Source: Nitrospinaceae bacterium (GTDB lineage: Bacteria; Nitrospinota; Nitrospinia; Nitrospinales; Nitrospinaceae). Taken from it: a stretch of 54,032 nucleotides of DNA. This document shows positions 5,507-7,658 of the stretch, in pieces. The translations under genes and the position numbers were made by a program. The number at the start of each line of letters is the position of its first letter. Positions within the stretch are counted from its first letter, which is position 1. The stretch is taken from contig JAHELC010000013.1 in assembly GCA_024644405.1 (NCBI GenBank), forward strand, positions 1 to 54,032, in the 5' to 3' direction. Under the pieces are notes generated by a model. The model was not told the DNA's origin and did not search any database. It was given only the letters and a program-made list of their open reading frames with translations.

Positions 5507-5583
5507 GGGGTCGTAGTTCAGTTGGTTAGAACGCCGGCCTGTCACGCCGGAGGTCGCGAGTTCGAGTCTCGTCGGCCCCGCCA
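5507..5583 (+). tRNA. tRNA-Asp (anticodon GUC)
   Basis: Seventy-seven bases with encoded CCA. The acceptor stem GGGGTCG pairs with CGGCCCC (one G-U), discriminator G, and anticodon arm CCGGC-CTGTCAC-GCCGG presents GUC. The T-arm is GCGAG-TTCGAGT-CTCGT. Its 3' part is repeated at 7618-7658, so the gene is a likely historic insertion site. No Rho-independent terminator follows this copy directly, whereas one follows each of the partial copies. Confidence 0.97.
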
Positions 5584-5588
5584 TTTTT
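5548..5588 (+). repeat. direct repeat copy 1 (3' end of tRNA-Asp)
   Basis: Forty-one bases covering the end of the anticodon stem, the T-arm, the acceptor 3' strand, CCA and five T residues. They match 7618-7658 with one mismatch (C at 5577, T at 7647). This copy is part of the intact tRNA, as expected for the left end of an element inserted at a tRNA 3' end. Confidence 0.85.
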
Positions 5589-5726
5589 TTCCAGTAAAAA
5601 ATAAAGACCTTCTTAAAAAACCCGGCTGATTAAAAGGATTGGTTCTGTTTCTGGGTGGCTCCCTGAATGACCCACCTTGGTTTCCTCTCAACGTTTCTCA
5701 TTCCAAATCGTTTTATTTTGCGTGAC

Positions 5727-7400
5727 TCATCTTGATTCGCTGTTGGATTGATTTTTATGCAAGCGGATACTGAAGATCACTCCATCCGTTTCATTATTTT
5801 TAACGGTGATTTCCCCGCCATGACGGGAAACGATTTTATCGCAAATCGATAACCCCATACCGGTACCTTCGTATTCGCTTTGACGATGCAGCCGTTCGAG
5901 CGGTTTAAAAATTTTTTTGAAATGGGCTTCATCAATTCCAATACCGTTATCTTTCACGGTGATTACAAGTTGTCCGTTTCCCTCATGCGTGGCATTCACA
6001 TCGACCACAGGCGCCTCCCCTTCCCGGTGGAACTTCAGGGCGTTCCCTATCAAATTGAGGAATAATTGGTGCATTTGCACCGGATCGGCTTCAAGGGTTG
6101 GTAGATCGCCTGCAGTCACATTTCCATTCGATTCGTGAATTCGGGTTTCCAGGTCTGCCAAAACACCTTGAATGATTTCATTGAGATTGACCGCCTTAAA
6201 GGGCTCAGTTTTTGTTTTGAGCTGGGCGTATATCAGAAGATCATCGATCAATAATTGCATGCGGGCGGCCGCACTTTGCATGCGCTCCAGATAATCTTTA
6301 CCCTTCAAGTTATTCCTGGAAATTTGTGCCGCCAGGCGATCGCCAAATACAATTATTTTTCTGAGCGGTTCCTGAAGATCATGGGAGGCGACCACGGAAA
6401 ACTCCTCAAGTTCCTTATTAATTTTCTCTAGTTTATTTTTTTGAGTTTGCAGTTCGTTTCCTTTACGGAAGTGCCTGTAACTTAAAAAGGACAATATCCC
6501 GCTGAATATAAACACCAGAAAACCTTCCAATAAGGCATAAGAAATTGAGTGCCAGCCCGCCTTGGGGACAACGGATAATATCCATTTACCCTGTGGGATT
6601 TCTATATCGACCGATAAGGGATCGTTCAAAACATTATCATCGGATTTTGAAAAAACGATATTTTGACCCGTAAAGGTATCGATTCGAGACAATTCAAAAA
6701 GGTAATTATTGGAAAAGAATTCGTAGATGCCCGCCGTTTTGAGCAAAGTGGACCATTCAATTAATGCTATGGAAAAACCCCAAAACTCCTGCTCCCCGGT
6801 CTCAAGGTTCGACACATACACCGGGTATCTGCCCAGTACGGCGACTCCTTGCTCCAATGTAACGGGGCCTTCTAAAGTTAATTCTTTTGATTGGATTGCA
6901 AGTATAGCGTAGGGATTTTTATTTAAGTCCTGCCCGAGGGCTTTCTGATACCCTTCCAATGGAAAGATTTGTTTGACAATTCCATTGGGGGCTAATTGCA
7001 GGTTGGTTATCCCGCCGTAGAGATCAATCAATTCCTCCGCTAACGAGTCAAATTTAGCTAACGTGCTATTCTGCCCTTTAACCGTTGTCTGCGCAGAAGG
7101 GGATGGCAAAGACCCTGAAAGTTGTTTTTCAAGAGATTGGGCGTAGGAGGTGGCAATGCTGTTGGCTATCGCCCGGGATTCAAACTCGCGTTTGACAACC
7201 GTTGCCAGCACATGGGTGGATGACAAGGAACGTGAAAGTTGTTTTTCAAGGGATTGGGCGTAGGAGGTGGCAATGCTGTTGGCTATCGCCCGGGATTCAA
7301 ACTCACGCTTCGCTTCCAGAACATAGATCAATAAACCACCGAAGCAAACGGATAAGAGAAATACCAATCCCGCACTTAAAATGATTCGATTTGCAAGCAT
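5727..7400 (-). CDS. membrane sensor histidine kinase with CHASE-like domain
   Basis: Sensor kinase of 557 residues. Domains in order: membrane helix at about 8-28; a tandem duplicated 39-residue segment at 32-109; an extracytoplasmic CHASE-like sensor at about 110-275; a second membrane helix at about 286-306; a linker; a dimerisation and phosphoacceptor domain with His340 (ASHDLQEPLRK, the phytochrome-like subgroup); and an ATPase domain with N-box NLIGNALKF, G1 DNGIGID and G2 GTGMGLSI. No response regulator is adjacent. It stands alone between tRNA-Asp and a partial copy of that tRNA, and by eye is AT-richer than its neighbours. Both points suggest it was acquired by transfer. Confidence 0.92.
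   Translation of the reverse strand: MLANRIILSAGLVFLLSVCFGGLLIYVLEAKREFESRAIANSIATSYAQSLEKQLSRSLSSTHVLATVVKREFESRAIANSIATSYAQSLEKQLSGSLPSPSAQTTVKGQNSTLAKFDSLAEELIDLYGGITNLQLAPNGIVKQIFPLEGYQKALGQDLNKNPYAILAIQSKELTLEGPVTLEQGVAVLGRYPVYVSNLETGEQEFWGFSIALIEWSTLLKTAGIYEFFSNNYLFELSRIDTFTGQNIVFSKSDDNVLNDPLSVDIEIPQGKWILSVVPKAGWHSISYALLEGFLVFIFSGILSFLSYRHFRKGNELQTQKNKLEKINKELEEFSVVASHDLQEPLRKIIVFGDRLAAQISRNNLKGKDYLERMQSAAARMQLLIDDLLIYAQLKTKTEPFKAVNLNEIIQGVLADLETRIHESNGNVTAGDLPTLEADPVQMHQLFLNLIGNALKFHREGEAPVVDVNATHEGNGQLVITVKDNGIGIDEAHFKKIFKPLERLHRQSEYEGTGMGLSICDKIVSRHGGEITVKNNETDGVIFSIRLHKNQSNSESR
7074..7307 (-). repeat. in-frame 117-base tandem duplication inside the kinase gene
   Basis: Two head-to-tail units of 117 bases (39 codons), 7191-7307 and 7074-7190. 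Each encodes a segment beginning REFESRAIANSIATSYAQSL. About 73 bases of the unit are nearly identical between copies, while the remaining 44 have diverged. It lengthens the periplasmic helix just after the first membrane segment without breaking the frame. Confidence 0.9.
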
Positions 7401-7498
7401 CGATCGTGATCAGTCATAAAGATCGGACAGAGGGGTATTCCGTCTTCGCAGGTTATTGGGGAAAGCCTGTTGTATCCACATAAATATTTGATAGGCTT

Positions 7499-7528
7499 AT
7501 ATTACAGGCTAAAGTCGTAACTATTCAA
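7499..7528 (-). promoter_or_regulatory. possible sigma-70 promoter of the histidine kinase
   Basis: On the minus strand, -35 TTGAAT (7528-7523) and -10 TAATAT (7504-7499) are separated by 18 bases. This places transcription start about 90 bases before the kinase ATG. It is a match by eye only. Confidence 0.4.
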
Positions 7529-7617
7529 AGTCAACCAGTGAAGCCTTAACGGAGCGGATTGGTGGTTCGTGGCTGGGTGAACTACGGCCTTTTACAAAAA
7601 TATGCCATGGGAGGGGT

Positions 7618-7658
7618 CGGAGGTCGCGAGTTCGAGTCTCGTCGGCTCCGCCATTTTT
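7618..7658 (+). repeat. direct repeat copy 2: orphan 3' fragment of tRNA-Asp
   Basis: Matches 5548-5588 with one mismatch, but the 5' half of the tRNA is absent, so this is a fragment rather than a gene. The sequence before it is unrelated, and a Rho-independent terminator follows at once. Together with the intact gene it brackets about 2.07 kb that contains only the sensor kinase. Confidence 0.88.

Follow-up and report, generated by a model that had tools for sequence, protein, structure and literature searches.

The tRNA-Asp locus and the genes behind it

In genome G000, the source of the window (the whole analysed stretch of 54,032 nucleotides, from one draft assembly; the relatives used for comparison are draft genomes as well), an intact tRNA-Asp(GTC) gene is followed by two displaced copies of its 3' end in the same orientation, each with a terminator hairpin behind it (Table 1). 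A sequence-only reading of this DNA had reported that the last 41 bases of the tRNA recur at 7618-7658 with one mismatch, the first copy belonging to an intact gene and the second being an orphan followed by a terminator. Both statements hold: the copies are identical at 40/41 positions (BLAST E 2e-16), the single change in fragment 2 being a C to T in the acceptor stem; ARAGORN called the complete tRNA, and the hairpin 3' of fragment 2 folds with −21.3 kcal/mol (z −6.6). An intact tRNA with a downstream 3' fragment in the same orientation is the arrangement by which tRNA-targeted islands are recognised. Chance repetition or resemblance within the tRNA family was ruled out by the best alternatives to the 40/41 match, which reached 29/41 for the orphan against the genome's other tRNA 3' ends and 23/41 (ungapped, within the window) against non-tRNA sequence. 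The only other clear orphan found by scanning the genome with its tRNA 3' ends was that of a tRNA-Lys on contig C21. The motif ATGCCATG to the left of fragments 2 and 3, of which the window holds two plus-strand copies only, was given no weight because the copy at fragment 3 falls inside the decayed tRNA. The short GC-rich intergenic sequence at 5407-5453, upstream of the tRNA, is a dispersed repeat, numerous both here and elsewhere in the genus.

Table 1. Features of the tRNA-Asp locus (window coordinates) and of the compared loci (locus coordinates).
Feature	Position	Strand	Basis and remarks
tRNA-Val(TAC)	5144..5219	+	ARAGORN; conserved left context, order kept in G001, G002, G004, G006, G007
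tRNA-Asp(GTC), intact; putative regenerated target, attL side	5507..5583	+	ARAGORN; repeat core 5548-5588
Unit A, AT-richer insert, one gene	5589..7617		Not at the site in G001, G002, G004, G006, G007; composition
CHASE-HisKA-HATPase_c histidine kinase, 557 aa, without receiver domain	5727..7400	-	Pfam
Tandem 117-nt (39-aa) duplication in sensor part of kinase	7080..7310	-	88% DNA identity; common to G007, absent in G026
tRNA-Asp 3' fragment 2	7618..7658	+	40/41; putative scar separating units A and B
Terminator hairpin after fragment 2	7660..7691	+	Fold; equivalent of native tRNA-Asp terminator
Unit B, second insert	7696..14200		Not at the site in relatives
Gene 3' end remnant (CAAHPDNYTVEIRK)	7713..7754	-	Also in G004 (L083:7350-7421) between tRNA-Asp terminator and VIT1-like gene
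Transglutaminase-like protein	7783..8673	-	Pfam; 83% in G002, 74% in G007
245-aa protein, third gene of conserved cluster	8677..9414	-	No Pfam match
Alpha-E domain protein	9411..10400	-	Pfam
Circularly permuted ATP-grasp protein	10459..11901	-	Pfam
CorA-like Mg2+ transporter	12226..13200	+	Pfam
MscS-like channel	13247..14137	+	ORF; name read from sequence
tRNA-Asp 3' fragment 3, decayed	14201..14241	+	28/41; secure part 14225-14241 (17 nt)
Terminator hairpin after fragment 3	14244..14275	+	Fold; ancestral flank resumes
Start of ancestral downstream flank, small gene	14303..14456		Then VIT1-like 15027-15620, methyltransferase from 16102 (L081, L083, L085)
Orphan tRNA-Lys 3' ends	L155:1604-1802 (G000 C21); L188:4831-5016 (G012); L189:11458-11644 (G007); L194:1086-1269 (G003)
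Phage-like contigs with integrase and attP-like tRNA-Asp 3' copy (46-47 nt)	L114:8416-9883; L200:5908-7722		Integrase within ~0.6 kb

The DNA between the first two copies (unit A) had been described as AT-richer and as holding only a CHASE-type histidine kinase, with neither an integrase nor a partner regulator, and this description was confirmed on each point: the GC content is 0.41-0.47 between the copies versus 0.49-0.56 on both sides, a single gene was recognised by Pfam, and no integrase or partner regulator is encoded among the open reading frames of the unit. Relatives of the kinase are few (64% in G007, 58% in G026, 55% in JADFGI010000011). It had been proposed to look for the kinase at other tRNA loci; in these three genomes it lies at other loci with no tRNA 3' end alongside, and the idea of a gene specific to tRNA loci was rejected on these grounds (in G026 and JADFGI010000011 it shares a common gene neighbourhood near a tRNA-Met, on the 5' side of the latter). 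A weak 30-nt match upstream of the window kinase and of the G007 gene, at equal distance from both, suggests that the kinase may have arrived together with its own promoter region. The two halves of the duplication in the sensor part (7080-7193 and 7197-7310) are more alike in the window kinase than in that of G007 and look homogenised.

Unit B carries a conserved cluster of the transglutaminase type followed by two transporter genes. The 245-aa product of the third cluster gene is likened here, by its context, to Anbu-type proteasome-like proteins, and the names VIT1-like, DUF211-like and MscS-like are our own assignments from the appearance of the sequences. The part with the cluster (7798-11925) is also present in G002 and G007, which have it at a different locus common to the two. 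Comparison of L112 (G000 C5:10000-28000) with L091 and L092 revealed that G000 has no transglutaminase/Alpha-E/ATP-grasp cluster at the corresponding locus, contig C5 carrying the right neighbours of the G002/G007 cluster locus but not the cluster. The gene-end remnant to the right of fragment 2, for which a full-length copy was not found among the compared loci, has its counterpart in G004 and is a further sign that the site has seen turnover.

Empty sites in related genomes and the extent of the insertion

The site and the kinase were searched for in 40 related genomes, and second copies of the tRNA-Asp 3' end were surveyed in 64 genomes of the order. The left side of the locus (MreB, a GAF/GGDEF protein, tRNA-Val and tRNA-Asp) is kept in G001, G002, G004, G006 and G007 of the same genus with 77-87% DNA identity, and no kinase stands behind the tRNA-Asp in any of these five. 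The proposal of an insertion at the tRNA 3' end, for which a relative running from tRNA-Asp straight into the terminator now at 7659-7692 had been named as supporting evidence, is borne out by G001, G002 and G007: their tRNA-Asp 3' end and terminator match window 7618-7696 with 91-93% identity over 79-80 nt, and the site is uninserted. In an IQ-TREE phylogeny of 5 kb of the left flank, G000 fell among the empty-site genomes, its exact position being weakly supported, with G002 and G004 on one side and G001, G006 and G007 on the other; the relatives on all sides of G000 being without the insert, a gain in one lineage follows, a single acquisition by G000 being a more economical account than repeated loss.

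The implied extent of 2 kb did not stand. In the relatives, tRNA-Asp is followed downstream by a small gene, a VIT1-like protein, a DUF211-like protein and a methyltransferase, and in the window these ancestral neighbours are not next to position 7692; the native flank resumes at about 14242-14283, where window 14224-14445 matches G007 (L085:5935-6156, E 1.8e-39) and also G002. A third tRNA-Asp 3' end, with the same terminator behind it, occupies 14201-14275. The insertion therefore amounts to 8.65 kb and consists of units A and B in tandem, the kinase-bearing piece being the inner one. A lone 2-kb element was rejected, the native flank having been found only beyond 14241.

Second copies of the tRNA-Asp 3' end were rare among the 64 genomes and restricted to G000, G036 and G042; two further cases were set aside, as G060 merely has overlapping contigs and the draft genome of G022 contains two tRNA loci that are both complete. 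In G036, which belongs to another family, the tRNA-Asp lies at a contig end and a second contig bears an orphan 3' end with the terminator seen in the relatives behind it and, ahead of it, MCP, response-regulator and kinase genes over no less than 6.7 kb; the two contigs are presumably joined. One insertion site is thus associated with differing cargo in G000 and G036, as in additive islands. Between tRNA-Asp and the methyltransferase of G003 (L086:409-10803, contig C28) there are about 10 kb of other genes, with no detectable tRNA scar.

Serial integration and the competing explanations

The structure is best explained by serial site-specific integration at tRNA-Asp, which would have produced additive islands similar to cis-mobilizable elements (CIMEs), with an integrase that was probably either lost or acting in trans; we place the probability of this reading at roughly 0.78. 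A circular DNA that itself carries the tRNA 3' end would recombine with the tRNA-Asp gene, so that the tRNA is made whole again and its former 3' end comes to lie beyond the insert. The first arrival would have been unit B, which left fragment 3, the most decayed scar, whereas unit A with its one CHASE histidine kinase would have followed later, leaving fragment 2 nearly intact; the order of decay (40/41 in fragment 2, 28/41 in fragment 3) is that expected if unit A is the younger. The synteny on the left is unbroken up to the tRNA, on the right the native sequence sets in again precisely with fragment 3 and its terminator, and a second unit of like design exists in G000 at a tRNA-Lys gene, all of which speaks for integration. 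Against it stand the outer arms of the units, which have no counterparts (see below), and the fact that no integrase, excisionase or circular form was seen. A further objection is the terminator at the tRNA-proximal end of unit B, which duplicates the native one and which a bare 3'-end att site would bring along only if attP reached that far.

Three breakpoints at one locus, all in the tRNA 3' end and in the same orientation, with the native flank intact on both sides, are unlike the random breakpoints of an ordinary chromosomal rearrangement that would have translocated the unit B cluster and the kinase via short repeats at the tRNA; the other cargo at the tRNA-Asp end of G036 already points away from such an event, too. 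It is true that the cluster resides elsewhere in G002 and G007 and is absent from contig C5 of G000, and its genes have therefore been moved or replaced within the genus; as an account of the whole locus, a rearrangement of this kind is nonetheless very improbable.

The duplicated terminator would also suit a fragment 2 that is the remainder of a second tRNA-Asp gene, arisen by tandem duplication of tRNA and terminator, later split by the kinase and shortened by an internal deletion. The heptanucleotide GGGGTCG at 7613-7619, identical to the tRNA-Asp 5' end, precedes the fragment and, joined to GAGGTCGCG, could represent a tRNA copy that has lost its middle part: it abuts the 3' part exactly at the join expected of a deletion with 2-nt microhomology, and the acceptor ends would still be able to pair. 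However, to the left of GGGGTCG there is no match to the region upstream of tRNA-Asp, an adjoining 7-nt match would arise by chance in roughly 1 in 1,000-2,000 cases (our own estimate), and fragment 3 and the orphan of G036 have the same layout without any 5' piece. This origin of fragment 2 is accordingly regarded as improbable.

Under serial integration the agent would presumably be a tyrosine integrase. None is encoded by the open reading frames in 5589-14200, no excisionase was seen in units A and B, and remnants of integration or conjugation genes were recognised neither in the units nor in translations of their noncoding flanks. The genome has three PF00589 genes, two Xer-like and one P4-like, all of them outside the contig of the window; the P4-like gene (L104:9345-10493 on contig C23, Arm-DNA-bind_3 and Phage_integrase domains) has no tRNA beside it. 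It could not be linked to the units as their source, there being no adjoining tRNA and no tRNA-Asp end on its contig. Plasmid transfer was likewise dismissed, as distant blastn searches returned only a 38-nt tRNA match.

The natural candidate for an enzyme acting in trans would be a phage integrase. On a 38.8-kb phage-like contig of G042 (C19) that encodes a terminase large subunit, a gene with matches to PHROG integrase families is separated by about 350 nt from a copy of the last 46-47 nt of tRNA-Asp, and the IMG/VR contig L200 (IMGVR_UViG_3300023223_001813) carries an 81% identical integrase in the same arrangement; this pairing marks the tRNA-Asp 3' end as a true attachment site for phages of the order. 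The tRNA-Asp copy of L200 has one mismatch and was found only via the phage integrase search, exact patterns of the tRNA-Asp 3' end and of the tRNA-Lys arm described below giving no matches in IMG/VR. No member of the genus, this genome included, has the G042-type integrase. Comparison of the outer arms gave no match between unit A and unit B, and none of either unit with G036 or with the phage attP arms.

The pattern extends to tRNA-Lys. The orphan tRNA-Lys(CTT) of G000 lies 20.2 kb from the intact gene and delimits a unit whose genes encode cytochrome, ankyrin, FKBP and oxidoreductase proteins, again without an integrase. Further units delimited by tRNA-Lys scars are found in G007, where 7.1 kb carry DabB/DabA/P-II, and in G012, where 2.7 kb carry a single NERD-UvrD gene. 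A noncoding left arm of about 140 nt is common to the tRNA-Lys scars of G000, G003, G007 and G012 (71-83% identity including the core), and its conservation suggests mobilisation in trans as a possible mode of transfer. In G003, moreover, a 143-bp repeat ending in the tRNA-Lys 3' end (L190:9781-9923 and L191:809-951, 96.5%) occurs shortly downstream of tRNA-Pro once and of tRNA-Arg once.

These units raise the question whether A and B are not remnants left by integrase loss, but active integrase-less cassettes that a phage or host recombinase mobilises in trans. Small units of this kind are found repeatedly at tRNA 3' ends across the order, the kinase at tRNA-Asp and the cytochrome module at tRNA-Lys in G000 being joined by the NERD-UvrD gene of G012 and the DabB/DabA/P-II operon of G007, both at tRNA-Lys, and the shared arm is what would be expected with one recombinase still recognising it. 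Yet the tRNA-Asp units are without that arm, the G042-type integrase does not occur in the genus, neither a circular form nor a recent transfer was seen, and the tRNA-Lys units may have decayed in parallel from a single old family of elements; active mobilisation is thus possible, but on balance doubtful. A wider proposal, that Nitrospinota possess a system of integrase-less cassettes at tRNA 3' ends, from a single gene to 20 kb in size and moved in trans, with the ~140-nt arm serving for recognition at tRNA-Lys and the tRNA-Asp units forming one branch, is speculative and at present unlikely.

Comparison with known islands and phages

Like the tRNA- and tmRNA-targeted genomic islands of the Islander set (PMC4383910), the insertion has an intact tRNA and a displaced 3' fragment of the same orientation as its ends and an empty site in relatives; in contrast to them, units A and B contain no integrase, which that set requires inside the island, and units of this design would therefore be filtered out. 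Standard island finders insist on an integrase and so overlook such units. Phage satellites would be expected to combine an integrase with phage-responsive or packaging genes, whereas unit A consists of a histidine kinase only and unit B of the transglutaminase-type cluster and transporters; neither unit qualifies. The temperate phages of Nitrospinota (G042 C19, i.e. L114, and L200) share the tRNA-Asp 3' end as attachment core, but have phage genes and an integrase, and their arms are unlike those of the units. Tycheposons, as described in PMC10872708, resemble the insertion in being tRNA-bounded, with metabolic or regulatory cargo, in aquatic bacteria; they have a tyrosine recombinase, in contrast to units A and B.

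Elements in which such units accrete offer further parallels. CIMEs, cis-mobilizable elements known for tandem accretion (PMC5704250), and the ssrA islands of Dehalococcoides without an integration module (PMC3146451) are, like the two units, bounded by att-like repeats, devoid of recombination and transfer genes and arranged in tandem at one RNA gene. With their putative att sites, units A and B conform to the description of CIMEs; unlike the latter, they are adjoined by no ICE, IME or integrase-bearing island that could move them in cis. The additive flexible genomic islands of Alteromonas (PMC4119200) and fGI-2 of Methylopumilus (PMC10872708) also have a conserved tRNA target and tRNA-end repeats that divide cassettes of variable size, but occur in other phyla, whereas the window belongs to Nitrospinota and its units are of one gene and of cluster size. 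Tandem, att-bounded units without an integrase are thus already known, and the window belongs with them; it shows the gain of a regulator and of metabolic genes at a tRNA hotspot in a little-studied phylum of nitrite oxidisers. The tRNA-Lys units with their arm of ~140 nt are a more unusual lead than the tRNA-Asp islands, and the conserved arm provides a concrete handle toward the recombinase that would move those units.
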